Assembly (NCBI GenBank): GCA_913055635.1
Contig: CAJXLK010000018.1
Coordinates: 1 to 64,000 of the forward strand
DNA length: 64,000 nucleotides
Reading direction: 5' to 3'
Source of the DNA: an uncultured Bacteroidota bacterium
GTDB taxonomy: Bacteria; Bacteroidota; Bacteroidia; Bacteroidales; UBA12077
The notes under the pieces are model-generated. The model worked only from the letters and a program-made list of their open reading frames with translations. It did no database searches and was not told where the DNA came from. The position numbers were made by a program, and so were the translations under genes. Positions within the stretch are counted from its first letter, which is position 1. Every line of letters starts with the position of its first letter. Shown here piece by piece: positions 4,771-63,920 of the stretch.

Positions 4771-4951
4771 ATCAGACCCCGCTTAGCGGGGTCTGATTTG
4801 TACCCACCCCCGCTTAGCGGGGTCTGATTGTACCTACCCCCGCTTAGCGGGGTCTGGTTTGTACCTACCCCCGCTTAGCGGGGTCTGATTGTACCTACCC
4901 CCGCTTAGCGGGGTCTGGTTTGTACCTACCCCCCGCTTAGCGGGGTCTGAG
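4771..4951. repeat. palindrome array 1 (six copies)
   Basis: Six copies of CCCCGCTTAGCGGGG have cores at 4777-4791, 4808-4822, 4838-4852, 4869-4883, 4899-4913 and 4931-4945, separated by spacers of 15-17 nt built on TCTGRTTTGTACCTA variants. The first copy is flanked so that ATCAGACCCCGC also pairs with its mirror on the other side. The period is 30-32 nt. The last copy ends 16 nt from the stop codon of the ferritin-like gene on the minus strand. All six have TTA in the centre on the + strand. Confidence 0.95.
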
Positions 4952-27505: not shown

Positions 27506-27585
27506 GACCCCGCTTAGCGGGGTCATCCCGAATACCACCCCGCTTAGCGGGGTCCATTGTAAAAATCTCCCCGCTTAGCGGGGTC
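27506..27585. repeat. palindrome array 2 (three copies)
   Basis: Three copies of CCCCGCTTAGCGGGG have cores at 27508-27522, 27538-27552 and 27569-27583, each flanked by GACC/GGTC-like bases. The array lies 34 nt behind the stop of the helicase gene (minus strand) and upstream of the BtuF-like gene. Confidence 0.95.
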
Positions 27586-30600: not shown

Positions 30601-30853
30601 GCACCGAATTCTCAGGCGTCTCGGCTACGATATTATCCAGTTTATAGCTTTCTTTGAGTTTGAATAATCCGGGTTCGGCTGGTTCCAACTTTTCCTTCAT
30701 CTCCTTCAGCCACTCAGGATGGGTGAAGTCGCCCGTGCCTACTACCTTGATGCCCTTGACCCGGGCCCAGTAATCCAGATACTCGGGACGCAGCTGCTTG
30801 CTGGTGGCCATCGAAAAATGAGAGTGGATATGAAGGTCTGCAATGAAATCCAT
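27620..30853 (-). CDS. PHP/EndoQ-like nuclease fused to UvrD helicase
   Basis: The 1077-aa protein joins two enzymes. Residues 1 to about 430 resemble endonuclease Q: a PHP domain with metal residues in DLHIHSHFS (H8, H10), GTGDFTHPE, and NSDAHSPEKLG near 220, then a zinc finger with C278, C281, C294 and C297. Residues 480-1077 are a superfamily 1 UvrD/Rep helicase with Walker A AGPGTGKT (499-506), AITFTNKAAGEM, DEFQD (683-687) and the late motif LLYVGMTRAE. EndoQ cuts DNA beside deaminated bases, so the fusion may nick at uracil or hypoxanthine and then unwind. It appears to be a single-gene unit; a palindrome array lies on each side. Confidence 0.88.
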   Translation of the reverse strand: MDFIADLHIHSHFSMATSKQLRPEYLDYWARVKGIKVVGTGDFTHPEWLKEMKEKLEPAEPGLFKLKESYKLDNIVAETPENSVRFMLSAEISNIYKKNGQVRKVHSVILAPDFEAVGQFQQKLSSMDFNITSDGRPILGMDVRDLLELTLEVNPENFFIPAHIWTPWFSVFGSKSGFDSIKECFEDLSGEIHTVETGLSTDPPLNWMCSFLDAYTLVSNSDAHSPEKLGRNANLFKTSLTYQAMVEAMKTGDPGQFGGTFDMFPQEGKYHYDGHRKCGICWNPVQTLKHRGICPVCGKQVTVGVVNRIVRLSDRQDIEQRKNRLPYYSIIPLKEILSEIEGVGEKSKKITRRYDQLIRKAGSEFNILQYLPTDQVSQLGGQVLGEAIRRMRNNEVIIHEGFDGQYGEIKVFQPDELRFIGNQESLFDASRAFRKPAPRQLIHFDLAEYRRLEAASAEQVVAEEKPSSYKTYGAGPLEGLNPQQRQAAAHHRGPAVVIAGPGTGKTRVLTRRMAYLVEKQQINPQNLLAITFTNKAAGEMKDRCHDLLDRPGQADELAIATFHAFGYQFLQEYASLASRSNRFTVIDQQEKQELIGKIFDINAQQARKQAALFSRIKQQRETPLNMDQDAREVQKTFDQYERHLQTLDVFDLDDLIHQTLQVLENNPDIRDQMARGYRWILVDEFQDINPLQYQLLQLLTQNAEPPNLFVIGDPNQAIYGFRGSSKRFISRFIEDHPDTAQYTLHTSYRCSRNILQASGNVLQQKGLEGLSDGVKIKIAPHQSEKSEAEYIARTIESLSGGLRFFSMDSGITGGQGDEQIESLSDFAILCRTRAQMGDIEKALQDHTIPYQSVVDDVFFHHPLVQKVRHLIERSENPHNTYIKNQTSKIQNLSATAESLTEELRQRETVKEKAELLLNNLAGEKEEDHAQEVRQKIKDLAASFQNSTQEFIRYLKLGAPGDSHQGQSEKVTLMTLHASKGLEFKCVFIAGCEDGLLPYSLFKSQQSDREEEKRLLYVGMTRAESYLYLTHARKRSVMGQEKKLPPSPFLDQIEKELTEVAENTYQKKQTEDSQLKLF

Positions 30854-31074
30854 AATGGGAAGCTTTGTTCAAATTTCTTAAAAATTTTGACCCCTTCCCC
30901 GAAAGGCTAATGTGGGTTGTTAACAAAAGCCAACAAATTATGCACAGGGAGGTAAACGGTTCCTTTTTCTTGTTCGCTTGCGCACATCTCCTGTTTTTAT
31001 GCCGTACAGATTTAGCCGGGGTTTGGAGTGGCAACTTCAAATCAAAAGGCTGTTAGTTAAATATTTATGTTGCT

Positions 31075-31089
31075 TGGCACGTTACTTGA
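31075..31089 (+). promoter_or_regulatory. candidate sigma-54 promoter of the first tandem permease
   Basis: TGGCACGTTACTTGA matches the sigma-54 consensus TGGCAC-N5-TTGC except that the -12 GC is GA. The GG and GA are 10 nt apart, the correct spacing. It lies about 290 nt upstream of the permease start, with array 3 in between. A nearly identical site precedes the second permease at 34056. Confidence 0.5.
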
Positions 31090-31167
31090 TGAAGAAATCC
31101 CTGAGTAATGATTATTACGCTTTTAGATATTGAAAAGATATTCAAAGAGGGTTGATGTTTTAAATCG

Positions 31168-31340
31168 ACCCCATTAAAAACTTCCCTAAGCGGGGTTTCC
31201 ACCGAAGACGACCCCGCTAAGCGGGGTTAGTGAAAACTTCCCTAAGCGGGGTTTCCACCGAAAGCGACCCCGCTAAGCGGGGTATTGAAAACTTCTCTAA
31301 GCGGGGTTTCCACCGAAAGCGACCCCGCTAAGCGGGGGGT
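31168..31340. repeat. palindrome array 3 (three compound units)
   Basis: Three tandem units of 55-56 nt each hold a half palindrome (CTAAGCGGGG), the spacer TTTCCACCGAAAGCGA, and a full core CCCCGCTAAGCGGGG at 31212-31226, 31268-31282 or 31323-31337. All have TAA in the centre on the + strand. Unlike the other arrays it lies upstream of both neighbouring genes. Confidence 0.93.
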
Positions 31341-31379
31341 AAGATCATCTGTACTGATAAATCCTTCAAAAAGTTGTCT

Positions 31380-33761
31380 ATGTTCAGCAATTACCTAAAA
31401 TCTGCCATCCGTCATCTTAAGAAATATCGATTTTATACCATCATTAATGTCACCGGTCTGGCCATTGGCCTGGCCGCTTCCATTCTCTTGTTCCTGTATA
31501 TTCGTTTCGAGTTGAGCTACGACACTTTTCACCAGGGGCATGAACAGATTTATCGCATTGTTTCCCATGTAGAAAGGCCGGGAGGCAAGTCCATGGTGGT
31601 CCCGCGCACTTTGGCCAAAGTATCAGGAGCAATGAAAAGGGAGATACCGGAAGTCACCGAAACCAATAAGCTCTATGAAGATGAGGTGACCTTGATAGAC
31701 CAGAAGGAGCATATGTATCCCGACATCGAGCTGATGTATACGGATTCTTCTTTTTTCGAGGTGTTTTCTTTTAAAGTACACCAGGGCGAGGGAGCTACTG
31801 CACTAAGCACCCCTGGAGAAGTGGTGATCACCCGTTCACTGGCCAGCCGGTATTTTGGCAGTGAAGATCCCATTGGGAAGGAGATACGGCGAAAAACGAA
31901 GCGTTATACAGTAGGGGCTGTGCTTAAAGATATACCCGCCAACTCCCATTTTGACTTCGACATGCTGACCAGTTTTAAGACCATGGAGCATCCCGAACGG
32001 TTTATGGAACAACATGGTTGGGATTTTTTCACCTATTTTCGTGTTAAACCCGGTGTGCAGAAACAGGAATGGGCCGGTGAAGTCCAAAGCCTGGCCAACC
32101 GCATAGGGACCAACATGATGCAGGAGATTGGTTCTGAGGGAGCTTTCGATGTGCAGACCCGGGTTCAGCCATTGACCCGCATCCACCTTCATTCCGGGTA
32201 CAATTTTGATATCGACCCCCAGGGCGACATCAACACCATTTATATCTTTTCTTTCCTGGCAGCTTTCATACTGGTTATCGCCATCGTCAATTTTGTCAAC
32301 CTGGTCACTGCCCATGGTGAGTACCGTTCTCGTGAGATGGGGATGCGCAAGGTACTGGGTGCCCGCAGGAAATCTCTGATTATCCAACACCTGCTGGAAT
32401 CATTTGTGGTGGTTTTTGGGGCCCTGATCATCTCACTGGTGTTGGTGAACTGGCTGGCCGATCCTTTGGGCAACCTGTTGAACAGTGAGCTGGTGATCGA
32501 CTGGATAAATCCATCGTTTATACTGTCTCTGGTTGGTTTTGCTGTTTTGGTGGGGCTAATGGCCGGTTCCTACCCGGCGTTCTATCTTTCCCGATTCGAT
32601 CCGGTGAAAATTTTCAGCCGCACAGGAAGCCGCGGCACCCGGAACAGAACGCTGCAGATTGGCCTGGTGGTGGTGCAGTTTGGCATTGCCATCTTCCTGA
32701 TCACCTCGCTGATCATCCTGCGTGATCAACTCAACTATTTGAACAACAAAGAACTGGGGGTAAACCAGGAAAACATCCTGGTGATTCAGAATGTTACCGG
32801 CGATATCCGCGAGAGTTACCAAGCCCTCAGAGAAGAGTTAATGCAATACCCCTCCATTCAGGAAGTCACCGCTTCGGTAAGCTATCCGGGCGCCGGCCGG
32901 GCAGTGCAGACGGCTAAAAAAGCGGAGGATCCCTCTTCCGAATCCATCGTCATTCAGGAAAATCGGGTGCAGGATCACTATGTGCAAACCTATGGGATTG
33001 AAATGGTTAAGGGCCGAGACTTCCGCCAGGAACTGGCCAGTGACAGTACCGGTTTTATTCTTAACCAACAGGCTGTTGATAAGTTGGGCCTGAGCCATCC
33101 TATCGGCAAACAGATAGAAGTTTTTCAGCAAAAAGGGCAAGTCATCGGGGTGATGAAAGATTTTCACTTCCGCTCGTTCCACCATCAAATCGAACCCCTG
33201 GTGCTTTCTCATTACTACGATTATTTTCAAAACATATCTGTTAAAATGGACATGCGCAATGTTTCGGCAACATTGGACCATGTTCGCCAGGTGATTGATG
33301 AGTTTGATTCACAGTATTATTTCAGGTATACTTTTATTGATGATGTGTTTGCTCAGCTGCACCAGCAGGAGCGGCAAACCAACAAGATGATCATGGCCGG
33401 TTCGGTCCTGGCTATCTTTCTGGCCATTCTCGGGCTTTTTGCCCTGAGCTCCTTCACGGTGGTTAAGCGTAGCCGGGAGATCGCCATCCGTAAGGCCATG
33501 GGGGCCTCTTACCACCGGGTGGTTCGCCTGCTGCTGATCGATATCCTCAGATGGGTTGTACTGGTCAACGTGCTGGCCTGGCCCGCCGCATGGTATTTTA
33601 TGAACGGCTGGCTGCAGAATTTTGCCTACCGCATCGAGCTCCAGGTATGGATGTTCCTGCTGGGTGGGCTCATTGCACTGGGCATCGCCGGGTTAACCAT
33701 TAGCGCTCAAACTATTCGGGCTGCCGCTGTCAACCCCGCCCACAAACTCAGAGATGAATGA
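31380..33761 (+). CDS. double FtsX/MacB-type ABC permease (tandem copy 1)
   Basis: The 793-aa inner-membrane protein is two MacB-like halves in one chain. Half 1 has TM1 at about 19-42, a periplasmic domain (45-275), and three helices to about 400 with the coupling motif REMGMRKVLGAR. Half 2 repeats the pattern: a helix near 425, a periplasmic domain, then REIAIRKAMGAS and the last helices, ending in NPAHKLRDE. ATG 31380 is used, not the TTG two codons earlier. FtsX-type permeases of this class move lipoproteins, peptides or drugs, or pass mechanical force, driven by a separate ATPase; none is encoded beside it. A sigma-54-like site lies upstream. It is the closest relative of the next gene and has the same length. 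Confidence 0.88.
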   Translation: MFSNYLKSAIRHLKKYRFYTIINVTGLAIGLAASILLFLYIRFELSYDTFHQGHEQIYRIVSHVERPGGKSMVVPRTLAKVSGAMKREIPEVTETNKLYEDEVTLIDQKEHMYPDIELMYTDSSFFEVFSFKVHQGEGATALSTPGEVVITRSLASRYFGSEDPIGKEIRRKTKRYTVGAVLKDIPANSHFDFDMLTSFKTMEHPERFMEQHGWDFFTYFRVKPGVQKQEWAGEVQSLANRIGTNMMQEIGSEGAFDVQTRVQPLTRIHLHSGYNFDIDPQGDINTIYIFSFLAAFILVIAIVNFVNLVTAHGEYRSREMGMRKVLGARRKSLIIQHLLESFVVVFGALIISLVLVNWLADPLGNLLNSELVIDWINPSFILSLVGFAVLVGLMAGSYPAFYLSRFDPVKIFSRTGSRGTRNRTLQIGLVVVQFGIAIFLITSLIILRDQLNYLNNKELGVNQENILVIQNVTGDIRESYQALREELMQYPSIQEVTASVSYPGAGRAVQTAKKAEDPSSESIVIQENRVQDHYVQTYGIEMVKGRDFRQELASDSTGFILNQQAVDKLGLSHPIGKQIEVFQQKGQVIGVMKDFHFRSFHHQIEPLVLSHYYDYFQNISVKMDMRNVSATLDHVRQVIDEFDSQYYFRYTFIDDVFAQLHQQERQTNKMIMAGSVLAIFLAILGLFALSSFTVVKRSREIAIRKAMGASYHRVVRLLLIDILRWVVLVNVLAWPAAWYFMNGWLQNFAYRIELQVWMFLLGGLIALGIAGLTISAQTIRAAAVNPAHKLRDE

Positions 33762-33795
33762 GACCGCCCCATAACAACCCCCGGTAAAGATTTTA

Positions 33796-33854
33796 ATGAA
33801 ACCCACATGCAAAGCCTTACAAAACAAGGCTATCAATAAAGCATTTGGGTCCAT
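33796..33854 (+). repeat. 59-nt inverted-repeat element, copy a
   Basis: It starts ATGAAACCCACATGC and ends GCATTTGGGTCCAT, so the ends can pair imperfectly. The middle has CCTTACAAAACAAGG, the conserved centre of the family. Read from its ATG the frame is open for 27 codons (MKPTCKALQNKA...), longer than the element. It lies in the leader of permease copy 2. Confidence 0.8.
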
Positions 33855-33952
33855 GGTGAGCTTTTTCGATAAGAATTGATCCTGGTGGAATACTATACGG
33901 AAATAAGTCTTTATCCAAATGAAGTCTTTAATATAAGCATATTCCAAAGAAC

Positions 33953-33968
33953 CGTTCGATATCGAACG
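33953..33968. promoter_or_regulatory. 16-bp perfect palindrome, possible activator site
   Basis: CGTTCGATATCGAACG equals its own reverse complement over 16 bases. It ends 87 nt upstream of the sigma-54-like promoter at 34056, a usual distance for an NtrC-type upstream activating site. Confidence 0.4.
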
Positions 33969-34055
33969 CAGCCCGTATTCATACCGAACACCTTTCCGCA
34001 GTCATTTATTTTGCTTTTTGTTTTAAATGTTTGTTATTCTGATTTTTATGGCATA

Positions 34056-34070
34056 TGGCATGTTAATTGA
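34056..34070 (+). promoter_or_regulatory. candidate sigma-54 promoter of permease copies 2 and 3
   Basis: TGGCATGTTAATTGA has GG and GA ten bases apart and differs from the site at 31075 at only two positions. The start codon lies 45 nt downstream, a normal leader length. Confidence 0.5.
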
Positions 34071-34114
34071 GCAAAATTTTAAATGATGTGAGAGAACCTT
34101 TCAAAAAAGGATTT

Positions 34115-36496
34115 ATGTTCAGGAATTATTTTAAATCTGCCCTTCGCCATCTGAAAAAAAACCGTTTTTTTACCGCCATTAATATCACCGGCCTGGCCAT
34201 TGGTCTGGCCGCCTCCATATTGCTTTTCCTGTATATCCGTTTTGAACTCAGTTATGACAGGTTTCACCAGCATCATGAGCAGATTTACCGCGTCGTTTCG
34301 CATGTGCAAAGGCCTGAGGGCAAGTCTGTGCTGGTACCCCGAACCCTTCCGGCGGTATCAAAAACCATCAAACGCGATATACCTGAAGTCGTTCAGTCCT
34401 GCAGGATTTACCCGAAAGAAGTAACCCTGCGGGATAACGAGGATCACCTTTTTCCGGATGTCGAGTTTTTTTACACGGATTCATCCTTTTTTGATCTGTT
34501 CTCCTTTGAAGTTCATCGAGGAGACGGGCCGTCTGCTTTGAGAACCCCTGGCCAGGTCGTCATTACCCGCTCACTGGCAAAACAATATTTTGGCGACCAG
34601 GACCCACTGAACCGTGAAATTCTCAGGGAAGGCAAAAGTTATACTGTGGGGGCTGTACTGGAGGATATTCCCGCCAACAGCCATTTCGACTTTGACCTGC
34701 TTACCGGTTTTCATACCATGAAGCATCTGGAGTATTTTATGGAGCGCCAGGGGTGGAATATGTTCACCTATTTCCGGGTTAGGCCTGGAAGCGAGCGGTC
34801 AGTATGGGGTTCAAAGGTCAGTGAATCGGCCAATCAGGTCAGTGCAAGTGCCATGCAGGATATGGGAGGGGACGGGGCCTTTGATGTGGAAACCCGCTTG
34901 CAATCCCTCTCGCGGATCCATTTGCATTCTGACTATAATTTTGACATTGATCCCCAGGGGGACGTCCAGCGCATCTATATTTTTTCCTTTCTGGCTGCTT
35001 TTATACTGATGATCGCCCTGGTGAATTTTGTCAATCTGGTAACTGCCCATGGTGAATACAGGGCGCGTGAAGTGGGTATGCGCAAGGTGCTGGGAGCCCG
35101 CCGCAGGTCACTGATCAAACAGCATCTGCTGGAGTCTTTTGTGATGGTTTTCTTTGCCACGCTCATCTCCCTGGTCCTGGCCGAAGGCCTTGCTTCTCCC
35201 CTGGGCAAACTCCTGGGCAGTGAACTGGCGATTGACTGGCTGAATCCCTGGCTGATTTTTGGTTTGATCGGCTTTGTCCTATTGGTAGGACTAATTGCTG
35301 GTTCCTATCCAGCTTTCTATTTATCCCGTTTCAACCCGATAAAAATATTCAGCCAAACAGCCAGTCAGGGTTCCCGCAAACGGACCCTTCAGGTTGGGCT
35401 GGTGGTGGTTCAGTTCGGCATTGCCATATTCCTGATCACCTCGCTGATCATCCTCCGGAGTCAACTCAATTACCTCAGCGACAAAGATCTGGGTGTAAGC
35501 AAAAACCACGTTTTGGTAGTAAAAGAAATCACCGCACCCATCCGTCAAAGTTATTCAGCCATCCGGGAGGAGCTGATCAAACACCCCTCCATACAATCTG
35601 TAACTGCCTCGTTTAGTGTTCCCGGTATGAACCGTCCATTACAGACGGCCCGCAAAACACAGGATTCCCCCGATGAATCCATTGTTATCCAGGAAAACCG
35701 GGTTCAGGATCATTACCTGGAGACCTACGGCATTGAGCTGGTTAAGGGAAGAGGTTTCAATCCAAAGATGGCCACCGACAAGACCAGCTTCATCCTCAAT
35801 CAGCAGGCAGTGGACAAGCTTGGCCTGAGCCGGCCCATCGGAAAAGAGATCGTGGTGTTTAAGCAGAAAGGCCAGATCATTGGGGTGATCAATGATTTTC
35901 ACTTCCGTTCTTTCCACCACCAGATAGATCCCCTGGTGCTGACCCATTACAGCAGTTATTTTAACCATCTCTCCATCCAGACTCATATGCAGGATTTTCC
36001 GGCCACACTTCAACATGTGCGCCAGACCCTTCAGGAGTTCGATTCTGGCTATTATTTCAAATATACTTTTCTGGATGAAATTTTTGCCCAACTGCATCAG
36101 CAGGACAAACAGACCAACCAACTGATTATGTATGGTTCCCTGTTGGCGATTTTTTTGGCCCTTTTGGGATTGTTTGCCCTGAGCTCTTTGACGGTGGTTA
36201 AGCGAAGCCGTGAGATCGCTGTTCGCAAAGCAATGGGAGCCACCTATCAAAGAGTGGTGCGCCTGTTGCTCAGCGATATCCTTAGATGGGTGGTTTGGGT
36301 CAATATACTGGCCTGGCCGGCAGCGTACTTTTTTATGAATGACTGGCTGCAGAATTTTGCCTATCGCATCGACCCCCAACTCTGGATGTTTTTGGGGGGT
36401 GGTGCGATTGCCCTGCTTATTGCCGGTTTAACCATTTCTGTTCAAACCCTGCGCGCCGCCGCAGTGAACCCGGCCGAAAGATTGCGCGACGAGTAA
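34115..36496 (+). CDS. double FtsX/MacB-type ABC permease (tandem copy 2)
   Basis: The 793-aa protein is the paralogue of the preceding permease: same length, same domain order, with long identical stretches such as NITGLAIGLAA versus NVTGLAIGLAA and SREIAVRKAMGA versus SREIAIRKAMGA. Eight helices and two periplasmic domains are expected. ATG 34115 (MFRNYFKSALRHLKK) aligns with the start of copy 1; the frame is open upstream only via a TTG. The C-terminus is NPAERLRDE. The next permease follows after 19 nt, so copies 2 and 3 are probably co-transcribed from the sigma-54-like site. The pair looks like a recent duplication. Confidence 0.88.
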   Translation: MFRNYFKSALRHLKKNRFFTAINITGLAIGLAASILLFLYIRFELSYDRFHQHHEQIYRVVSHVQRPEGKSVLVPRTLPAVSKTIKRDIPEVVQSCRIYPKEVTLRDNEDHLFPDVEFFYTDSSFFDLFSFEVHRGDGPSALRTPGQVVITRSLAKQYFGDQDPLNREILREGKSYTVGAVLEDIPANSHFDFDLLTGFHTMKHLEYFMERQGWNMFTYFRVRPGSERSVWGSKVSESANQVSASAMQDMGGDGAFDVETRLQSLSRIHLHSDYNFDIDPQGDVQRIYIFSFLAAFILMIALVNFVNLVTAHGEYRAREVGMRKVLGARRRSLIKQHLLESFVMVFFATLISLVLAEGLASPLGKLLGSELAIDWLNPWLIFGLIGFVLLVGLIAGSYPAFYLSRFNPIKIFSQTASQGSRKRTLQVGLVVVQFGIAIFLITSLIILRSQLNYLSDKDLGVSKNHVLVVKEITAPIRQSYSAIREELIKHPSIQSVTASFSVPGMNRPLQTARKTQDSPDESIVIQENRVQDHYLETYGIELVKGRGFNPKMATDKTSFILNQQAVDKLGLSRPIGKEIVVFKQKGQIIGVINDFHFRSFHHQIDPLVLTHYSSYFNHLSIQTHMQDFPATLQHVRQTLQEFDSGYYFKYTFLDEIFAQLHQQDKQTNQLIMYGSLLAIFLALLGLFALSSLTVVKRSREIAVRKAMGATYQRVVRLLLSDILRWVVWVNILAWPAAYFFMNDWLQNFAYRIDPQLWMFLGGGAIALLIAGLTISVQTLRAAAVNPAERLRDE

Positions 36497-36515: not shown

Positions 36516-38879
36516 ATGTTTTTAAATTATTTAAAGATCGCTTTCCGGAACATTTATAAACATCCCAGACACTCGCTGTTCAATATCCTTGGATTATCCA
36601 TAGGTATGGCAGCAGCGGTGATCATTCTTTCGTTTATCCTCCATGAATTGAGTTATGACAATTTTCACCAAAACAAGGAGCGCATTTATCGTGTGATTGC
36701 CAATGCAAAGATTTCAGAGGGAAAGAACCTGAGTGCCCCGATGGCCCATGGTTTTGCAAAAAAATGGACGGAAGACGAATTTCCTTCGATTGCCTCGATC
36801 ATCCGCATTGATTTGGAGAATCCCGTTTTTATTCATAACGACAAAAGGTACCGGGGCAATCAGGGGTATTACACCGATTCTTCCTTTTTGAAGGCCTTTA
36901 CTTTTGAGGCCAAATATGGCGATGTGAGCCGGGCCTTATATGCCCCCGACCGGATTGTGCTGGTCGAGGACATGGCCAGGCGGATTTTTGGTTCAGCCAA
37001 CCCGGTAGGCGAAGTTCTTGAGATGGGGGATAAAGAGCTTACCGTGGCCGGTGTGCTTAAGGAGATTCCCCCCAACAGCCACATGGATTTTGATTTTCTC
37101 CTTCCCATGATTGCTAAGGATAATCCTACCCTGGAATTTCGTCGGCGGGGGGTGAGCCTTTTCACCTATGTCGTTTTCAAGGAACCTGTGGATAAGGCCA
37201 CTCAGCAGGAAGTGAGTTCTTTCATTGAACAAAAGACAAATGAAGCCTTTGAATCCCTGGGATTAACGGTGAACCATCATTTGCAGCCCCTGGAGCAGGC
37301 CCATCTGAATTCCTCGGGCTTTCAGTTCAACCTTTCCCCTCCGGGCAATATGAGCAACCTTTATACCCTGGGAGCCCTGGCTTTATTGATTATTGTGATT
37401 GCCGTGATCAACTATGTCAACATGGAAACAGCCCGTTCCGAGAACCGGGCCCGGGAGATTGGCATGCGGAAAGTCAGCGGAGCTGGTCGGCAGGCCCTGA
37501 TCCGTCAGTTTCTGGGCGAATCGTTGATGCTCTCTTTTATTGCCATGCTGGTGGCCCTGCTGCTGGTAGAGGTGTTCATTCCCGATATTCAAAGTTTATT
37601 GCAAAGAGAATTCCACCAGTTCATCTATGATCCGGCCCGAATCGCCATGTATGTTCTGATCACCATTTTTATCGGCTTGATGGCCGGGGCTTATCCGGCG
37701 ATTTACCTGGCCCGCTTCAGCCCCGTCAGAATCCTTAAAGGTTCCCCCGCTTCCGGGCGTACCAAAAATGGCCTGCGCCAGGTCCTGGTGGTGGTGCAGT
37801 TCTCCATCGCTACCTTTTTGATCATCAGCCTGCTTTTTATAAGCCGCCAGATCCATTATATGAAAAATAAAGACCTGGGCTTCGATCAAAAACAGGTCAT
37901 GGTGCTCAGGGATCTGACCGACCCGATCCAGGACAGTTATGAAGTGGTTCGCCAGGATTTGTTGAACATACCGGGTATTGACCAGGTTACTACTGCCCAG
38001 TATTATCCCGGAAACATCGGTTCCCATCAGCAACTGAGAAGGGACCAAAAATCCGAAGGTGGGGTTTTGATCAAACACAACCGGATTGATCCCAATTATA
38101 AGAAAACCCTGGGCATTGAGATGAAAGAGGGAAGATACTTCAAAGCGGATGTGGCTTCCGACAGCAACAAATATGTGGTCAATCAAAAGACCCTGGATTA
38201 TCTCGGGATGAAGGATCCCATCGGTAAAGAGGTGGTGTTAAACAGTGAGAAAGGTCGAATTATAGGAATTATGGAGGATTACCACACGGAAGGGTTGCAG
38301 AATGAAATCATGCCCATGATTCATACCCTTGAAGATGAATACCGCGATTACATCATGGTGAAAATGGATCCCCAAACCATAACGGCCACGATGGAGCGGA
38401 TCAAGGCCCAACTGAGTTCCTATGATCCGACCTATCACATGGATTACACCTTCCTGGACCAGTTCTTTAATCAAAAATACAAGCAAGAGGAGCGCATCCA
38501 TCAACTCAGTATGGCCGGCTCAGTATTGGCCATCTTTATTGCCATATTGGGCTTGTATGCGCTGGCTTCTTTTGTGGTCATCAAACGGACCAAGGAAATC
38601 GGTATCCGCAAGGCCATGGGTGCAACCGGCAGAAATGTGGCCCTGCTCATCAATATCAGCATCAACAAATGGGTCCTGCTGGCCAATATCCTGGCCTGGC
38701 CCCTGGCTTTCTATTTCATCAGGAAATGGCTGGAAAATTTTGCTTACCACATCAACCTGCAGGTGGATTTTTTCCTGTTGGGAGGTCTGTTGGCCCTGTT
38801 GATCGGGATCTTCACGGTCAGTTACCATACCATGCTCGCTGCCCGGACCAACCCGGCCGAGACACTGAAAGAAGAGTGA
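36516..38879 (+). CDS. double FtsX/MacB-type ABC permease (tandem copy 3)
   Basis: The 787-aa protein has the same two-half plan: TM1 in LFNILGLSIGMAAAVIILSF, periplasmic domain, coupling motif REIGMRKVSGAG, then the second half with KEIGIRKAMGATG and terminal NPAETLKEE. It is clearly less alike to copies 1 and 2 than they are to each other. The 19-nt gap to copy 2 leaves no room for a promoter, so it should be read from upstream. Its periplasmic domains differ most, which suggests a different partner or substrate. Palindrome array 4 follows its stop after 8 nt. Confidence 0.87.
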   Translation: MFLNYLKIAFRNIYKHPRHSLFNILGLSIGMAAAVIILSFILHELSYDNFHQNKERIYRVIANAKISEGKNLSAPMAHGFAKKWTEDEFPSIASIIRIDLENPVFIHNDKRYRGNQGYYTDSSFLKAFTFEAKYGDVSRALYAPDRIVLVEDMARRIFGSANPVGEVLEMGDKELTVAGVLKEIPPNSHMDFDFLLPMIAKDNPTLEFRRRGVSLFTYVVFKEPVDKATQQEVSSFIEQKTNEAFESLGLTVNHHLQPLEQAHLNSSGFQFNLSPPGNMSNLYTLGALALLIIVIAVINYVNMETARSENRAREIGMRKVSGAGRQALIRQFLGESLMLSFIAMLVALLLVEVFIPDIQSLLQREFHQFIYDPARIAMYVLITIFIGLMAGAYPAIYLARFSPVRILKGSPASGRTKNGLRQVLVVVQFSIATFLIISLLFISRQIHYMKNKDLGFDQKQVMVLRDLTDPIQDSYEVVRQDLLNIPGIDQVTTAQYYPGNIGSHQQLRRDQKSEGGVLIKHNRIDPNYKKTLGIEMKEGRYFKADVASDSNKYVVNQKTLDYLGMKDPIGKEVVLNSEKGRIIGIMEDYHTEGLQNEIMPMIHTLEDEYRDYIMVKMDPQTITATMERIKAQLSSYDPTYHMDYTFLDQFFNQKYKQEERIHQLSMAGSVLAIFIAILGLYALASFVVIKRTKEIGIRKAMGATGRNVALLINISINKWVLLANILAWPLAFYFIRKWLENFAYHINLQVDFFLLGGLLALLIGIFTVSYHTMLAARTNPAETLKEE

Positions 38880-38887
38880 CCGGGTTA

Positions 38888-39003
38888 CCCCCCGCTAAGC
38901 GGGGGGAACCAACGCGGGGAAAAATCCCCCCGCTTAAAACCACCCCGCTTAGCGGGGGGTAACCAATGATAGACCCCGCTAAGCGGGGTAAGTTCAAGCG
39001 GGA
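38888..39003. repeat. palindrome array 4 (three full, several half copies)
   Basis: Full cores lie at 38890-38904 (TAA centre, extended to six C and six G), 38943-38957 (TTA) and 38974-38988 (TAA). Half copies are seen at 38914, 38926-38936 and 38995. The array starts 8 nt behind the stop of permease copy 3. Confidence 0.93.
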
Positions 39004-44104: not shown

Positions 44105-44232
44105 TTGATTTTGGTTATAGGTTTGCAGCTATAAGCCCGGAGGATGAATATTTGGGAAGTGTTCGTTTTTGAACATTCCTGTTGCATTTTGTCACACAAC
44201 AGCCTGCAATGGATGGACGAATTTATAGATAA

Positions 44233-44742
44233 GTGTCACATATTTTGGGTTTTGTGACTAATGGTACGGTGCTTGAAGTCACCTTTAACAGATGGGGTAA
44301 AACGCATCAAATTTGTTCGGTGGAAGTTAAACCGAATTCCGCTATTAACAATCAATATACTACAATTAACACTCAATATACCACTGATGAGCGTTTCTTT
44401 GGAGCCTATTTAAAAAATGAACCCAAATATTTCTGCCTTATGAAAGACATTTGTGTTCCCATCCCCGGATTTGGCGATGATGAAGTCGCGGAACTTTATC
44501 TTAAAATAGGGGATAAACAAATCAGTTATGATTTCCGCATTGAATCCTTCCTTTGGGAAGCTGAAGATGAGCTCAGCGAAGGCAAGGATGAGTTAACCCA
44601 TTCGATAGCCCGAATAGAAAGGCTACGGCGGGCAATCAACAGCTATGACAAGCGTTGGGAGTTGGTTCAAATTTTCAATCCGCCGGAAAACTCCAAATAT
44701 ATTCAGGTACTTTTCCGGAAGCGAAACAGCACGGGCGATTGA
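44233..44742 (+). CDS. hypothetical protein, start uncertain
   Basis: The 169-aa open frame is more AT-rich than its neighbours and has no family motif I recognise. The C-terminal half is helical and charged (FRIESFLWEAEDELSEGKDE, then ARIERLRRAINSYDKRW). The frame begins at GTG 44233 directly after an in-frame TAA, and the first ATG comes only at residue 69. It could be a real gene with a GTG or TTG start, or the 3' part of a gene whose beginning was lost. The palindrome array starts 7 nt behind its stop, as with the stops of real genes nearby, which supports a true 3' end. Confidence 0.5.
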   Translation: MSHILGFVTNGTVLEVTFNRWGKTHQICSVEVKPNSAINNQYTTINTQYTTDERFFGAYLKNEPKYFCLMKDICVPIPGFGDDEVAELYLKIGDKQISYDFRIESFLWEAEDELSEGKDELTHSIARIERLRRAINSYDKRWELVQIFNPPENSKYIQVLFRKRNSTGD

Positions 44743-45094
44743 GTTAAACGCCCCCGCTAAGCGGGGGCGCAAGGGGTGCAAACAACCCCGCTTCAAACAA
44801 CCCCGCTTAGCGGGGTCCCAAATTCAAACAACCCCGCTTAGCGGGGTCCCAAAGCGGGGTCCCAAATCATTACCCCCGCTTAGCGGGGTAATATCCAGCG
44901 GGGTCAGTACCATTGAGCCGGCAGCACTGAACCAAAGTTTAACAATTGATTCATTTAAATTTTTTGACTATATTCTAAAAGATGGTTGATCATTATAATT
45001 ATATTATTGATATCAATATACAATTAAATAATGTTCTTCTTTAACCAACCAACATCTAGAATTTAACCGATCCTATTAACCAAATCTTTATCCC
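44743..45094. other. intergenic gap with palindrome array 5
   Basis: 352 nt. The first 165 nt are palindrome array 5 (44750-44906). The remaining part is very AT-rich and must carry the promoter of the NTF2-like gene; no clear -33/-7 pair was found. Confidence 0.5.
44750..44906. repeat. palindrome array 5 (four full, three half copies)
   Basis: Full cores lie at 44752-44766 (TAA centre, arms extended to GCCCCCGC), 44801-44815, 44832-44846 and 44874-44888 (TTA centre). Half copies lie near 44785, 44853 and 44897. Spacers are built on GTCCCAAATTCAAACAA. The array starts 7 nt behind a stop codon. Confidence 0.93.
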
Positions 45095-48237: not shown

Positions 48238-48257
48238 CCTGTCCATTTGTGGACAGG
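48238..48257. promoter_or_regulatory. inverted repeat upstream of the adaptor gene
   Basis: CCTGTCC (48238-48244) and GGACAGG (48251-48257) are perfect mirror arms around ATTTGT. No T run follows, so a protein-binding operator is more likely than a terminator. It lies 98 nt before the adaptor start. Confidence 0.4.
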
Positions 48258-48355
48258 GAGGTGATTATGGTTTTGAGGCAAATAATCTGACATCCAGGCT
48301 TTTGCTTTTTATGGCAATGAAATTGCAGTTCCTTCCCTCCAATAAAAAGGTAGCC

Positions 48356-49619: not shown

Positions 49620-50294
49620 ATGCAAACAATGATCTATTTGGAAAGCATCAGTAAGGTTTACCAGACCAGAAACATTGAAACCCTGGCCCTGGACCAGATC
49701 AGCCTTTCCATCCAGCGGGGTGAATTCGTCTCGGTCATGGGCCCTTCAGGCTGCGGTAAATCCACGCTGCTCAATGTAATGGGACTTTTGGATAATCCCA
49801 CACAGGGAAAAATTATGCTCGAAGGGATTGAGGTTCAGGGATATAGCGATAAATCTCTGGCTGGATTGAGGAATCAGAAACTGGGTTTTGTCTTTCAAAA
49901 TTTTCACCTGATCCCCTCCCTCAATGTCCGCGACAATGTAGCCCTGCCGCTGTTGTATCGCAAGATGGCCAATGATCAAAGAAAGCGGCTCACCCGTGAG
50001 GTGCTTGAGCAGGTCGGATTGACCCACCGTGCCCAACATTATCCTTCGGAATTGTCCGGAGGTCAATGTCAGCGGGTGGCCGTTGCCAGGGCCGTTGTTG
50101 GCCAACCGGAAATCATCCTGGCCGATGAACCCACCGGTAACCTCGACAGCAAAATGGGCGAGGACATCATGCTCCTGCTGCAGTCCCTGAATAAGGAAAT
50201 GGGCACCACCGTGGTGATGGTTACCCATGACCGCAAACTCGCCGATGAAACCCGAAGAATCGTCCATCTCTTTGATGGGCGTCAGGTCAATTAA
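49620..50294 (+). CDS. ABC transporter ATPase (MacB/LolD type)
   Basis: The 224-aa ATPase has a complete nucleotide-binding domain: Walker A GPSGCGKST, Q-loop VFQNFHLIPS, signature LSGGQCQRV, Walker B IILADEP, D-loop GNLDS and H-loop VMVTHD. It belongs to the LolD/MacB-N class that drives FtsX-type permeases. It is the only ATPase of this class in the window and therefore the natural energy source for the two half-size permeases, and perhaps also for the five tandem ones. ATG 49620 or 49629 could be the start. The next gene is 226 nt downstream, beyond two inverted-repeat elements. Confidence 0.93.
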   Translation: MQTMIYLESISKVYQTRNIETLALDQISLSIQRGEFVSVMGPSGCGKSTLLNVMGLLDNPTQGKIMLEGIEVQGYSDKSLAGLRNQKLGFVFQNFHLIPSLNVRDNVALPLLYRKMANDQRKRLTREVLEQVGLTHRAQHYPSELSGGQCQRVAVARAVVGQPEIILADEPTGNLDSKMGEDIMLLLQSLNKEMGTTVVMVTHDRKLADETRRIVHLFDGRQVN

Positions 50295-50306
50295 AACCCT
50301 TTCATT

Positions 50307-50365
50307 ATGAAACCTGCATCCAGTAACCTACACAACAAGGATATGATTATACATGCGGGTTCGAT
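50307..50365 (+). repeat. 59-nt inverted-repeat element, copy c
   Basis: It starts ATGAAACCTGCATCC and ends CATGCGGGTTCGAT, with CCTACACAACAAGG in the middle. The frame from its ATG is open for 24 codons (MKPASSNLHNKD...). It is followed 32 nt later by copy d in the same orientation. Confidence 0.85.
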
Positions 50366-50396
50366 ACGGCCAATATATTAACAAAAAAATAACCGT

Positions 50397-50455
50397 ATGA
50401 AACCCGCATGCAAGGACTTACACAACATGGACATGGATATACATGCGGGTTCCAT
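50397..50455 (+). repeat. 59-nt inverted-repeat element, copy d
   Basis: The most regular copy: ATGAAACCCGCATG at the left end and CATGCGGGTTCCAT at the right end pair over 13 of 14 bases. The frame from its ATG is open for 28 codons (MKPACKDLHNMDM...). Its end is 65 nt before the half-size permease start. Confidence 0.9.
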
Positions 50456-50520
50456 AATGATTGACCACATAATGTCTGTTTAAAGATTCAGACCATAACT
50501 ATTAATTAAGTTATATCCGT

Positions 50521-52990: not shown

Positions 52991-54349
52991 ATGGTATTGA
53001 TCGTGGATGATGACAAAGCGGTGCGCTCTTCCCTGAAGCTGCTGTTGAAGCAGGCAGGCCATCAGGTCGAGGCCCTCGAGGGACCTCAACAGACCCTCCG
53101 GTGGGTGCGCCACCAGTGGCCATCGCTCATCCTGATGGATATGAATTTTTCCAGCGATACCAGTGGGCGTGAAGGCATTGAGCTGTTGCAGAAAGTGCGC
53201 GTTTTTTGCCCCGATGTACCGGTTATTTTGATTACGGGTTGGGCAACCATTGATTTGGCCGTGGAAGGCATCAAACAAGGGGCCAACGATTTTATTACCA
53301 AACCCTGGGACAATCAGGCCCTGCTTGAGTCGGTGCATACCCATATGATGATCCATCAGGGAGACCACCCGGATATGAACCGCAAGCAACTGGATGAGCA
53401 GTTCAATTTAGCCAACATTGTAGGGGAAGACCCGGTTTTTTTGGAGGTGCTTAATGCCATGGGGAAGGTGGCCCCCACCGAAGCCACTGTCCTGATCCAC
53501 GGAGAGAGTGGAACAGGAAAGGAGCTGATTGCCGAGGCCATCCACAAGAACAGCCATCGCTGTCATAAGCCTTTTGTGAAGGTTAATATGGGAGGGATTG
53601 CCACAAACCTTTTTGAGAGTGAGATGTTTGGTCACCGAAAAGGGGCATTTACCGATGCCTGGCACGACCGTCAGGGCCGGTTTAGCCTGGCTGAGGGGGG
53701 TACCATATTCCTGGACGAGATTGCCGAGTTGGATCCTGCTGGCCAGGTTAAGCTTTTAAGGGTGCTTCAGGAACGCCAGTATGAGGTATTGGGAGAGAGC
53801 ACCACCCGGAAAGCGGATGTGAGGGTTATCTGCGCTACCAACCAGAATCTCGAGGAACTGGTGCAAACGGGGAGGTTTCGTGAGGATCTGTATTACAGGA
53901 TCAACCTGATTAATATTAAAGTGCCTTCCCTGCGCGAACGCCCCCACGATATACCTGCCCTGACACGCTATTTTGTAACTCAGGTCTGTGCTGAAAATGG
54001 CCTGCCGGCCAAAAAACTTTCTCAAGATGCCCTCCAATGGCTGAAAAAATACAGGTTCCCCGGTAATATACGGGAGTTAAGGAACCTGGTTCAGCGCTCG
54101 GTTCTTTTATCTTCGTCAAATGAGCTTTCTGAACAGGACTTCAGCACTCAGTTGGTTGCCAGCCACTGTGTTGCATCCAATAAAGACCGAATGGGGCTGC
54201 AGACCCTTGAAGAAGCCGAAGAGCAACTGATAAGGGAAACCCTCGATTTTTACCGCGGGAACCTCTCGCAGGTGGCCCGCTCATTAGGCCTGTCGAGGGG
54301 AGCCTTGTACCGGCGGCTCGAAAAATTTAATATCCGCTATGACGATTAA
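52991..54349 (+). CDS. NtrC-type sigma-54-dependent response regulator
   Basis: The 452-aa activator has three domains. Residues 1-120 are a receiver with acidic D6/D7, phospho-acceptor D50 (LILMDMNF) and K104. Residues about 140-370 are the AAA+ domain: Walker A GESGTGKE (171-178), Walker B GGTIFLDEI (236-244), and the sigma-54 loop GAFTDA (218-223), where most proteobacterial relatives read GAFTGA. The C-terminal Fis-like helix-turn-helix is QVARSLGLSRGALYRRLE. It would activate sigma-54 RNA polymerase at promoters such as those at 31075 and 34056. The histidine-kinase gene overlaps its end by 11 nt. Confidence 0.93.
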   Translation: MVLIVDDDKAVRSSLKLLLKQAGHQVEALEGPQQTLRWVRHQWPSLILMDMNFSSDTSGREGIELLQKVRVFCPDVPVILITGWATIDLAVEGIKQGANDFITKPWDNQALLESVHTHMMIHQGDHPDMNRKQLDEQFNLANIVGEDPVFLEVLNAMGKVAPTEATVLIHGESGTGKELIAEAIHKNSHRCHKPFVKVNMGGIATNLFESEMFGHRKGAFTDAWHDRQGRFSLAEGGTIFLDEIAELDPAGQVKLLRVLQERQYEVLGESTTRKADVRVICATNQNLEELVQTGRFREDLYYRINLINIKVPSLRERPHDIPALTRYFVTQVCAENGLPAKKLSQDALQWLKKYRFPGNIRELRNLVQRSVLLSSSNELSEQDFSTQLVASHCVASNKDRMGLQTLEEAEEQLIRETLDFYRGNLSQVARSLGLSRGALYRRLEKFNIRYDD

Positions 54350-55643
54350 AAAACGTTTTTGGGTTTTTTTGGGCCTGTTTTTTATCGGTTACGGGTTCAT
54401 CCTCTATGAATTGCTTCAGCATAACCGGTGGGTTTTCCTGGTGGGAGAGGTACTTCTGGCGGGGATGGTGGTTTTTTTGGCAGCCCTTTACCGGCAATAC
54501 CTCCGCCCCATTCATGTCATAAGTAGCGGCATATCTTTGCTTCGGGAGAAGAATTTTTCCACATACCTTAAAAAGGTCGGTCAATGTGATGTGGACGCCA
54601 TCGTGGAGGTTTACAATCAGATGGTCAACCAGCTCAGGAAAGAGCGGGTCGAGAAAGAAGAGCAGCACCATTTCCTTGAACTTCTGCTGGAGGCCAGTCC
54701 GGTGGGGGTATTGATCATGGATACCGCAGGCAATATTATGCAGGTCAACCCGGCTGCCATTCGGCAAATGGGATTGGACAACGCTCAAAAAGCCGTGGGG
54801 CGGAGCATCGCCAATTTGTCCCATCCGCTGGCCCGTGAACTGGAGGTTATGACATGTTGCCAGTCCCGATTGATTCAACTCGATGGGGTCAGCATGTATC
54901 AGGTGCACCGCAAATATTTCATGGATCGCGGAGTTCAAAGGCCCTTTTACCTGATCGAGGATGTCTCCAAACAATGGCTGTACTTCGAAAAGCAGTCCTA
55001 TGAAAAGGTCATCCGAACCATGTCGCACGAAGTGAATAATACGGTCGGCAGCATCAATTCGGTGCTGGGGTCCCTCTCCGGCTACTACCGCCAAATGGAT
55101 GATGAAACGGCAGTGGATGTGCGTGAAGCCCTGGAAGCCTCCATCGAGCGGAACAACAACTTAAACCGCTTTATGGCCAATTATGCCAGCGTGGTCAAAA
55201 TACCGGAACCCAGTAAAAACGACCTTGATATCAACCAACTCGTTTACAGGGTCACGCGTTTGTTTGAATCCGATTGCCGGCAAAAGGGCATTCACCTCGA
55301 ACATCATCTCAGTGAACACTCCCCCTTGATTTGGGCCGATCAACCCCAGATGGAACAGGTCCTGGTAAATGTGGTCAAAAACAGCCTTGAAGCCATCGAA
55401 AAGGACGGACGTATCCAGGTGCAAACTTCCCGCAAACCACTTCAAATAAAGGTGTTGGATAATGGAAAGGGCCTTACCCCTTCCGCCCGGAAAAAAATCT
55501 TTACCCCCTTCTATTCCGATAAAGAAAAGGGCCAGGGCATCGGACTGACCTTTGTCCGCGAAGTGCTCCTGGCCCACCAGTTTTTCTTTTCCCTCTCCAG
55601 CCTTCCTGATGGCTGGACCCAATTCCTCATCCGCTGCGATTGA
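54339..55643 (+). CDS. sensor histidine kinase of the NtrB/ZraS type
   Basis: The 434-aa membrane kinase has two helices at the N-terminus (7-25 and 31-50) with almost no periplasmic loop. A linker is followed by a PAS domain (about 108-212). The phospho-acceptor is H230 in RTMSHEVNNTVGS; the ATPase domain shows NVVKNSLEAI, VLDNGKGL and GQGIGLTFVREV. Without a sensing domain outside, it probably detects a signal in or near the membrane, or the state of the transporter. It pairs with the regulator encoded directly upstream (11-nt overlap). Confidence 0.92.
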   Translation: MTIKKRFWVFLGLFFIGYGFILYELLQHNRWVFLVGEVLLAGMVVFLAALYRQYLRPIHVISSGISLLREKNFSTYLKKVGQCDVDAIVEVYNQMVNQLRKERVEKEEQHHFLELLLEASPVGVLIMDTAGNIMQVNPAAIRQMGLDNAQKAVGRSIANLSHPLARELEVMTCCQSRLIQLDGVSMYQVHRKYFMDRGVQRPFYLIEDVSKQWLYFEKQSYEKVIRTMSHEVNNTVGSINSVLGSLSGYYRQMDDETAVDVREALEASIERNNNLNRFMANYASVVKIPEPSKNDLDINQLVYRVTRLFESDCRQKGIHLEHHLSEHSPLIWADQPQMEQVLVNVVKNSLEAIEKDGRIQVQTSRKPLQIKVLDNGKGLTPSARKKIFTPFYSDKEKGQGIGLTFVREVLLAHQFFFSLSSLPDGWTQFLIRCD

Positions 55644-58498: not shown

Positions 58499-58613
58499 CC
58501 CCGCTTAGCGGGGTCGCTCATCCAACCCCCGCTTAGCGGGGTCAGATGTTCACCCCGCTTTTCTTCACCCCGCTAAGCGGGGTCATTTTACTTCACCCCG
58601 CTAAGCGGGGTCA
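58499..58613. repeat. palindrome array 6 (four full, one half copy)
   Basis: Full cores lie at 58499-58513 and 58527-58541 (TTA centre), and 58568-58582 and 58596-58610 (TAA centre); a half copy is at 58553-58560. Half of the array is thus in one orientation and half in the other. It ends 6 nt from the stop of the small membrane protein gene on the minus strand. Confidence 0.94.
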
Positions 58614-61535: not shown

Positions 61536-63920
61536 TCATTCATACCGCAGCGAATCGGCCGGGTTCAGGTTGGCGGCCTGCCATGATTTATAGGAGATGG
61601 TTGTGGCAGCGATCAATAAAGCTGCGGCAGCTCCCAGAATGAAAATATCCGGAGTCAGGGTGATCTTGTAAGCGAAGTTGGCCAGCCACCGGTTCATGGC
61701 AAACCAGGTAATAGGGGCGGCCAGCATAATGGCCACCACCACCCATTTGAGGAATTCTTTCCCCAGCAACAGGATGATTTCGTTGACGGTGGAACCCATT
61801 GCTTTGCGGATGCCAATTTCCCGGGTTCTGCTTTCAGCCACATAGGTCGACATCCCATACAGGCCCATGATGGCGATGATGATGGCCAGGACGGAAAAAT
61901 AGGTAAAAATTTTGCCCAGCCTTTCTTCTGTTTTGTAAAGCTTGTCAAATTCCTCCGACAGGAAAGTGTACTTAAAGGGCAGGGCGGGATTGAAGGTTTT
62001 CCAGATTTCTTTCAGTTCATCAATGGTAGCTGGGAGGTTGTCGGGTTGCACCTTAATGTTGATGTAGTTGTGCCAGTCGGCATTCCACACCAGGCCCAGC
62101 GGGGTGATGGGTTCGTGCATGGAACGGAAATGAAAATCTTTGACCACGCCAATGACTTTACATTGTTTGCTGGGCAGAACCGTCAGGTACCAGTCGTCGC
62201 GGTGAAAGACTGTACCGGCGGCATCGCCCCTTTTCAGTCCCGATTCCTTCAAAGCGGTCTCATTGAGGATGATGGCTGTTTTTTTCTCAGAAGTTCGCTC
62301 ATAGGAAAAATTGCGGCCTTCCAGCAATTTGATGTCCATCATCGGGATGTAGTCGGGATCGACAGTGATTAAATTGAGGGTGGTGTTTTGTCCATCCCCG
62401 TCGAAATCATAGTTTTCCATATTGTTGCCCCGTTCGGCGACTGAAAAACTATAGGCGGCCTGCTTTACCCCGGGGAGGGCTTTGACCTGTTGCTTGAAAA
62501 CGTCCATTTTCTTTTTGATGGCTTCACTCAACCGGATGGCCACTACTTGATCCTCATCAAAGCCCAGTGTCTTGTTTTTCATGTACTGGAGCTGTTTGTG
62601 CACGGCCAGGGTAGAAATGATCAAAGCCACAGAGATGGTAAACTGAAAGACGATGAGAAATTTACGGAACATAGCTGCTCCTTTGCCTTTGGTTTTTTCT
62701 CCCTTCAGGACCTGGACTGGTGAGTAGCGTGTCAGGTAAAAAGCGGGATAAATCCCTGCCAGGGTTCCTATGATCAGGATTCCCGCCAGTGACAATGCGA
62801 TGAAGGCAGCAGAGGTCATGATGGAGGTGGACATTTCGGCCTGGATGATCCGGTTGAAATGGGGCAGAAAGATCTGTACCAGTGTCAGGGCCACCAGGAA
62901 CGAGATGAAGGTGATCAGCACCGATTCGGCGATGAACTGGCCGATGAGTTGTTTTTTTCGGGCTCCGTGGACTTTGCGCATGCCCACTTCATTGGCCCGG
63001 CTGGCTGCCCGGGCAGTGGTCAGGTTGATGAAATTGACCGAGGCCAGAGCCAGGATGAAAATACCAATGGCAATGAAAATCATCACCGTTTTTTTGTTGC
63101 CATGAACCGCCCCGAAATCATACCTGGAATGATCGGCAAAATATACATCCTTTAGCGGACGCAGGTTGGGGTCAATCGTTTCATCCCCGCTCAGATCATC
63201 GGCAAATTTCTTTCGGAAAAAATCTTCCATCTTTTGCTCCAGCATTGAAATGTTGGTGCCCTTTTCCAGAAAAAAGAAGGTGGGAAATTGATAGGTTCCG
63301 TAGCTCTGTAAATATTCCGGTCCTTTTCTTGCCCCCAGCAACTGGAACGGACGTAAGGCTTTAATCTGCAGGTAAAAAAGCTTCGGATCCGCTATCACTC
63401 CCGTTACGGTCATTTTTGTACCCGATACCGATTCCAGGGATTTGCCCATGGGATTGATGCCCGGGAAAATTTTATCGGCCATGCTTTGGGTCAAAACAAG
63501 GGAGTTGTTGTTCTCCAGGGCATTGCGGGGATTCCCCTGAACAAACTTAATGGTGAAGAGGTCGAAGAAAGTGCTGTCGACCAGAAATACATTCTCCAGC
63601 TGGTAAGTGTTTTTTTCGCGGGTTACGTATTGATCGCCTTCCACCTTATATCGGCAGTATTTTTTGATCTCAGGAAGGGCCTGGTGCAGGTCGGGCCCCA
63701 TGGCCGAGGTCATATGTACCCCCCGGGCATCACCCCATTCCATCCGGTAAATCTGATCGATGTGCTCATTGAAACGGTTGTAGCTGTATTCGCGCTTCAC
63801 AAAGAGCATGATGAAGATGAATATGGCAATGCCCACTGAAAATCCGATGAAATTGATGGCCGAGAAAATTTTGTTCCTGGCGATGTTTCTCAGGGCGGTT
63901 TTGAGGTAATTTTTGATCAT
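61536..63920 (-). CDS. double FtsX/MacB-type ABC permease (sixth copy)
   Basis: The 794-aa protein has the same double plan as the tandem set: TM1 in INFIGFSVGIAIFIFIMLFV, periplasmic domain, coupling motif NEVGMRKVHGARKK, second half with REIGIRKAMGSTVNE, and the end NPADSLRYE. It lies on the opposite strand, about 17 kb from the tandem array, and is distinct in sequence. No ATPase gene is next to it. An inverted-repeat element of the same family as near the other permeases lies 29 nt in front of its start and runs past the window edge. Confidence 0.88.
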   Translation of the reverse strand: MIKNYLKTALRNIARNKIFSAINFIGFSVGIAIFIFIMLFVKREYSYNRFNEHIDQIYRMEWGDARGVHMTSAMGPDLHQALPEIKKYCRYKVEGDQYVTREKNTYQLENVFLVDSTFFDLFTIKFVQGNPRNALENNNSLVLTQSMADKIFPGINPMGKSLESVSGTKMTVTGVIADPKLFYLQIKALRPFQLLGARKGPEYLQSYGTYQFPTFFFLEKGTNISMLEQKMEDFFRKKFADDLSGDETIDPNLRPLKDVYFADHSRYDFGAVHGNKKTVMIFIAIGIFILALASVNFINLTTARAASRANEVGMRKVHGARKKQLIGQFIAESVLITFISFLVALTLVQIFLPHFNRIIQAEMSTSIMTSAAFIALSLAGILIIGTLAGIYPAFYLTRYSPVQVLKGEKTKGKGAAMFRKFLIVFQFTISVALIISTLAVHKQLQYMKNKTLGFDEDQVVAIRLSEAIKKKMDVFKQQVKALPGVKQAAYSFSVAERGNNMENYDFDGDGQNTTLNLITVDPDYIPMMDIKLLEGRNFSYERTSEKKTAIILNETALKESGLKRGDAAGTVFHRDDWYLTVLPSKQCKVIGVVKDFHFRSMHEPITPLGLVWNADWHNYINIKVQPDNLPATIDELKEIWKTFNPALPFKYTFLSEEFDKLYKTEERLGKIFTYFSVLAIIIAIMGLYGMSTYVAESRTREIGIRKAMGSTVNEIILLLGKEFLKWVVVAIMLAAPITWFAMNRWLANFAYKITLTPDIFILGAAAALLIAATTISYKSWQAANLNPADSLRYE

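Follow-up and report, generated by a model that had tools for sequence, protein, structure and literature searches.

Sigma-54 regulons controlled by bEBPs are known as a kind of system. In classical NtrC-type bEBP/RpoN control, an activator with receiver, AAA and Fis HTH domains is paired with a kinase, and tandem dyads lie about 90 bp upstream of a -24/-12 promoter. A C at -12 (GC) is usual in sigma-54 promoters but it is not absolute. A 2025 study (PMC12316311, PLoS One) predicted that FtsX permeases of Bacteroidia are under sigma-54 control. The available part of that paper describes an in silico sigma-54 regulon of COG0577 FtsX-like permeases with enrichment at the class level, gives TGGCAC-N5-7-TTGCT as the consensus, reports chaperones and proteases as sigma-54 linked in Bacteroidota, and has EBP specificity as not available for all its organisms. 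A GAFTDA loop is accepted as a functional variant (PMC4641369). A search of the literature found no paper on sigma-54 in Bacteroidota which assigns EBPs to these permeases.

In the window, which is the whole stretch of 64 kb analysed here, two genes for ABC-transporter permeases are preceded by matching 15-mers. Both are very probably real sigma-54 promoters, which would put these genes under a two-component switch. The locus resembles the regulon of PMC12316311, as far as the available text describes it, in the permease family, the kind of promoter, the phylum (as inferred from gene content and from named distant relatives) and prediction in silico. It differs in having A or G as the -12 base, in the assignment of an enhancer code, a spacing and a candidate EBP, and in the linking of targets that are scattered. 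It shares with classical NtrC-type control the receiver-AAA-Fis HTH activator, the paired kinase and tandem dyads placed some 90 bp ahead of the -24/-12 element, whereas here the predicted targets are ABC permeases and exporter parts and the loop is GAFTDA in most EBPs. Like tripartite exporters of the MacAB-TolC type, it has MacB_PCD and FtsX domains, and the same control site is found at an HlyD adaptor with an ABC ATPase (C1) and at a TolC-like gene (C29). In contrast to these exporters, copies 1 and 2 are duplicated permeases of about 800 aa with no ATPase adjoining, the nearest being 13-18 kb off at 49689-50135. New elements are an enhancer code, its spacing, a candidate regulator, the drift at -12 between genera and a link among scattered parts.

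31075..31089, plus strand: predicted sigma-54 -24/-12 promoter of permease copy 1, TGGCACGTTACTTGA; the same 15-mer occurs in congener G002
31168..31345, plus strand: three hairpin repeats of 55 bp, located in the leader that separates promoter 1 from the ATG of copy 1; absent from the G002 ortholog, which has a 27-bp leader
31380..33761, plus strand: MacB_PCD/FtsX permease copy 1, 793 aa; ATG 31380, 290 bp after site 1
34056..34070, plus strand: predicted sigma-54 -24/-12 promoter of permease copy 2, TGGCATGTTAATTGA; ATG 34115 lies 44 bp on
34115..36496, plus strand: MacB_PCD/FtsX permease copy 2, 793 aa with 70% identity to copy 1; ATG 34115
36516..38879, plus strand: MacB_PCD/FtsX permease copy 3, 20 bp past the end of copy 2, without a site of its own

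The earlier note had drawn attention to these two 15-mers, and its description is confirmed: at 31075 and 34056 they are alike at 13 of 15 bases and differ at two positions, the gap from GG to GA is ten bases in both, as in -24/-12 geometry, and each lies before a MacB/FtsX-type permease. One correction of details concerns the true starts of the two genes, which are likely ATG 31380 and ATG 34115 and not the mechanical TTG starts. Copy 3 is probably carried by the transcript of copy 2, since it follows after 20 bp and has no site of its own. Permeases of about 800 aa with these domains are abundant in the own genome.

The leader of copy 1 is as long as 290 bp because the three hairpin repeats sit inside it, and its folding is unusually strong (z -4.2). 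The 18-mer TAAGCGGGGTTTCCACCG of this array is found nowhere else in the genome (at most 2 mismatches), while the palindrome itself recurs across the window. Arrays of CCCCGC-TNA-GCGGGG palindromes, about 30 or 55 bp apart, lie between genes at 31168-31345 and, with approximate positions, at 4777-4945, 27508-27583, 38890-38988, 44752-44888 and 58499-58610. Upstream of a divergent UvrD-like helicase gene, window positions 30920-30955 hold a DnaA-box-like TTATGCACA stretch with GTTAACAA, which for the most part is also kept in G002 and G003. Intergenic regions ahead of permease genes, at window positions 50300-50460 and 33796-33830 and at C18:63950-64010, hold imperfect repeats of related sequence, ATGAAACCCGCATGCAAGGACTTACACAACA ... 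ATGCGGGTTC and variants.

The strict motif, TGGCAY-N5-TTGM, has TGGCACGTTACTTGA and TGGCATGTTAATTGA as its only exact matches in the 64-kb window. The genome scan suggested by the earlier note gave 84 exact matches in 4.08 Mb, about three quarters of them within ORFs, and 1.3 are expected per 64 kb. Thus the mere presence of two sites in the window is no evidence, and it is their placement that counts. When 26 long MacB/FtsX permeases of the own genome were searched up to 350 bp upstream on the coding strand, the strict motif was found in 7 of the 26 (shuffled upstream regions: mean 0.059, largest 2). The relaxed motif, TGGNAY-N5-TTGN, occurs in 41 of 91 permease upstream regions of the own genome and relatives (shuffles: mean 1.5, largest 5); 36 of these 41 sites sit 23-49 bp ahead of the start codon, and the reverse strand of the same 91 regions has one match only. 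An unbiased scan of permease upstream regions for spaced trimers ranked GGC-N7-TTG and TGG-N8-TTG, which are the same element, at the top. Where a permease lacks the site, it is mostly a downstream member of a cluster; some lead genes, too, have no recognisable one, which counts against the promoter reading. The motif also stands at promoter distance in orthologs. TGGCACGTTACTTGA is kept letter for letter in G002, 27 bp before the ATG of the copy 1 ortholog (protein 87% identical), and G003 has TGGCATGTGATTTGA 25 bp before the ATG of its ortholog.

It could be argued that the two sites match by chance and that an ordinary Bacteroidota sigma-A promoter drives copies 1 and 2. The 84 genomic matches, mostly within genes, and the non-canonical -12 base fit such a view, but the statistics of position, strand and spacing together with the conservation across species oppose it. 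A scan of 30801-35000 for two sigma-A patterns only, TTTG-N17..21-TANNTTTG and TTG-N18..22-TANNTTTG, gave no match near either copy, and chance is considered very improbable.

It should be noted here that the -12 base is A in both window sites, so that the usual GC is missing; this was not taken to rule out sigma-54. Among permease promoters of the genus, 14 of 19 have A directly after TTG, and among those from other relatives 13 of 21 have G there. GA is thus the local norm and not a defect, which lifts the worry of the earlier note over GA in place of GC. Exact sites, intergenic or in a leader, also precede dnaK, lon and an hsp20 gene, again with A at -12. They were counted in favour of the sigma-54 reading since these are kinds of genes reported as sigma-54 linked in the available part of PMC12316311. 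The genome has a single rpoN, for which the earlier note had proposed to look (PF04552, E=2.4e-56; RpoN box ARRTVAKYR intact), and rpoN was found in 36 of the 39 genomes searched. The relatives without rpoN are too few to serve as a negative control: G026 lacks permeases of this type, the one in G038 is without the motif, and G019 is 78% complete with a start not in frame. The earlier reading of the sites as sigma-54-type promoters is therefore supported by the presence of rpoN, by a motif conserved across the genome family at promoter distance and by its recurrence at dnaK, lon and hsp20. The drift of the last base by group, A in the genus and mostly G in other relatives, is unusual for a classical -12 element and would agree with the conserved TGG-N8-TTG being the site of an unrelated DNA-binding protein and not of RpoN. 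However, the spacing of GG and G is exactly that of -24/-12 promoters, the motif is accompanied by divergent Sigma54_activat genes and by an enhancer-like site about 90 bp upstream, it recurs at dnaK/lon/hsp20, and an HlyD operon keeps TTGC. An unrelated protein is thus held to be a highly unlikely owner of the motif.

Sigma-54 promoters switched by an NtrC-type regulator would be expected to carry a shared enhancer site, and such sites are predicted upstream of both copies and of a third promoter.

30971..31008, plus strand: predicted enhancer site (UAS) of copy 1, TGTTCG-N4-CGCACA with second half CCGTACA; dyad 1 to promoter 88 bp
33953..33990, plus strand: predicted enhancer site (UAS) of copy 2, CGTTCGATATCGAACG with ATACCGAACA; dyad 1 to promoter 87 bp
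44160..44175, plus strand: predicted enhancer dyad of the third promoter, TGTTCG-N4-TGAACA, the same dyad as at copies 1 and 2
44262..44276, plus strand: third sigma-54-like site, TGGTACGGTGCTTGA, 86 bp from the dyad; the short ORF that follows has no Pfam match

The pattern at copies 1 and 2 is TGTTCG-N4-CGNACA followed by a second half CCGWACA, with one outer base altered per side in copy 2. The UAS of copy 1 is also found in the G002 and G003 orthologs. Spacing was taken from the end of dyad 1 to the TGG of the promoter, and the values of 88 and 87 bp fall within the roughly 80-150 bp upstream considered for an enhancer site. A spacing of 86-89 bp is observed at seven promoters of the own genome, namely those of copies 1 and 2, the site at 44262, the C51 permease, the C21 gene, the C29 TolC-like gene and the C1 EBP/HlyD intergenic region. 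It is shifted at the C37 permease (78), C19 (77) and C10 (142). Over the tested range of 20-260 bp, 3 of 12 dyad matches fall outside 77-89 bp. Many loci in this survey were chosen for holding a strict site, so the counts are biased and the spacing is not. In the congeners G001, G002 and G003 permeases have a spacing of 87-89, and the C1-type EBP locus has one of 88. There are seven near-perfect dyads genome-wide, of which five precede a sigma-54-like site; at two mismatches there is no genome-wide enrichment of the dyad (139 against 130 in the control), and the signal lies only in near-perfect dyads and in the spacing. In many relatives an NtrC-type gene is divergent from a permease promoter with a dyad between them, and the dyad types match the clades of these permease-linked activators. 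The idea of one regulon, put forward in the earlier note, gains support from the same enhancer-like site 87-88 bp upstream of both promoters.

Which activator reads this site is a separate matter. The window has an activator and a kinase of its own, and they are present as the earlier note described, in an operon of the order HlyD-ATPase-permease-permease-activator-kinase that starts at ATG 48356.

48240..48255, plus strand: dyad TGTCCA-N4-TGGACA, conserved in both G002 and G003, where the window's activator probably binds
48312..48326, plus strand: predicted sigma-54 site TGGCAATGAAATTGC of this operon, with canonical GC; 56 bp from the dyad in three species
52991..54349, plus strand: NtrC-type activator with receiver, Sigma54_activat and Fis HTH domains and a GAFTDA loop; it probably does not switch copies 1 and 2
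54339..55643, plus strand: PAS sensor histidine kinase, partner of that activator

The earlier note had suggested that copies 1 and 2 are switched by the pair at 52991-55643. Synteny speaks for it and counts against our preferred explanation, as copy 1 and this activator lie on the same contig in the same orientation in the own genome, G002 and G003, and both are missing from G001 and G004. In addition, the dyad predicted for the pair resembles TGTTCG-N4-CGAACA in its outer TGT..ACA. However, its own operon carries TGTCCA-N4-TGGACA at 56, conserved with TGGCAATGAAATTGC in G002 and G003, and not the TGTTCG-N4-CGNACA double dyad found at 87-88 before copies 1 and 2 and at 86-89 elsewhere. G001 is without this activator and yet has a TGTACG-N4-CGTACA dyad at spacing 89 ahead of a permease. 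In the tree the window's activator stands outside the clade of permease-linked EBPs, on a long branch whose placement is unsure. The claim is therefore disfavoured, and sigma-54 promoters switched by the window's own pair are regarded as rather unlikely.

The switch which fits the shared control site would instead be encoded elsewhere in the genome, not adjoining copies 1 and 2. Most likely it is the EBP-kinase pair C1:12407-15119. The same site is found there, at a spacing of 88-89 in four species including G001, in the intergenic region shared with a divergent operon for HlyD and an ABC ATPase. A matrix made from this C1 regulator locus (EBP at C1:13743-15119) of the four species alone ranked the UAS of copy 2 first and that of copy 1 third among ~128,000 window positions. 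The C3 EBP (C3:143093-144457) comes as a close second candidate, and the window's pair would be third; this ranking is read from the DNA sites. The C3 EBP had been considered as sole reader of the site, and this was widened after the C1-type locus showed the same double dyad in four species. Two further points count against the preferred explanation: the C1 promoter reads ATGA and not TTGA, and several EBPs are paralogous, with C1 and C3 both having a fitting site. The C1 HlyD-ATPase operon is followed downstream by a serpin gene (L263:12590-13843). A further EBP-kinase pair (C18:64246-66940) lies just beyond the window and is divergent from a permease (61536-63920); no exact sigma-54 site lies between the two, the best being TGGCACAATTCTTTC.

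The activators of the window and of C1 both read GAFTDA at the loop position of GAFTGA. Among 62 distinct activators (L167-L252), a sample chosen largely by similarity to the window EBP, GAFTDA or GSFTDA replaces GAFTGA in 56. A covariation of the GAFTDA loop with a non-C base at -12 was considered and dropped because in three species TTGC is retained at the HlyD operon, whose linked activator has the GAFTDA loop.

The explanation we consider likely as a whole is that of sigma-54 promoters with an NtrC-type regulator at the shared double dyad, most likely that of the C1 pair. RpoN-polymerase would bind TGGCAY-N5-TTGA. A signal, perhaps from the envelope, would lead the kinase to phosphorylate its NtrC-type partner, which would sit about 90 bp upstream on TGTTCG-N4-CGAACA and the second dyad. 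The regulator could then loop onto the polymerase, and ATP hydrolysis would open the promoter and turn on the MacB/FtsX permease genes. The same code also lies before the C51 and C37 permeases (the latter at spacing 78), the C29 TolC-like gene and the third window promoter at 44262. Sites, conservation, spacing and gene content were computed, and we infer RpoN binding, the identity of the regulator, the phosphorylation signal and a joint envelope-exporter function of the products.

Since the C1 operon encodes an adaptor and an ATPase, C29 a channel, and both belong to the same proposed regulon, the products may work together. It is possible, and we propose it tentatively, that they form one scattered exporter, in which the C1 adaptor and ATPase and the C29 outer-membrane channel would be served by several interchangeable ATPase-less permeases (C18, C51, C37), joined only by the enhancer and sigma-54 code. 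Paralogous two-component pairs could read slightly different dyads and so deploy different sets of permeases.

A hunch about two sites thus becomes a regulon that can be tested, to which an enhancer site, a spacing and a candidate regulator are assigned. DNA-binding domains of activators and the dyads naturally paired with them, in at least five types, may be used for reading the specificity code of bEBPs. Searches that require GC at -12 would miss most sigma-54 promoters of this permease family. For the orphan FtsX permeases that are common in these genomes, the regulon predicts which ATPase may drive them.
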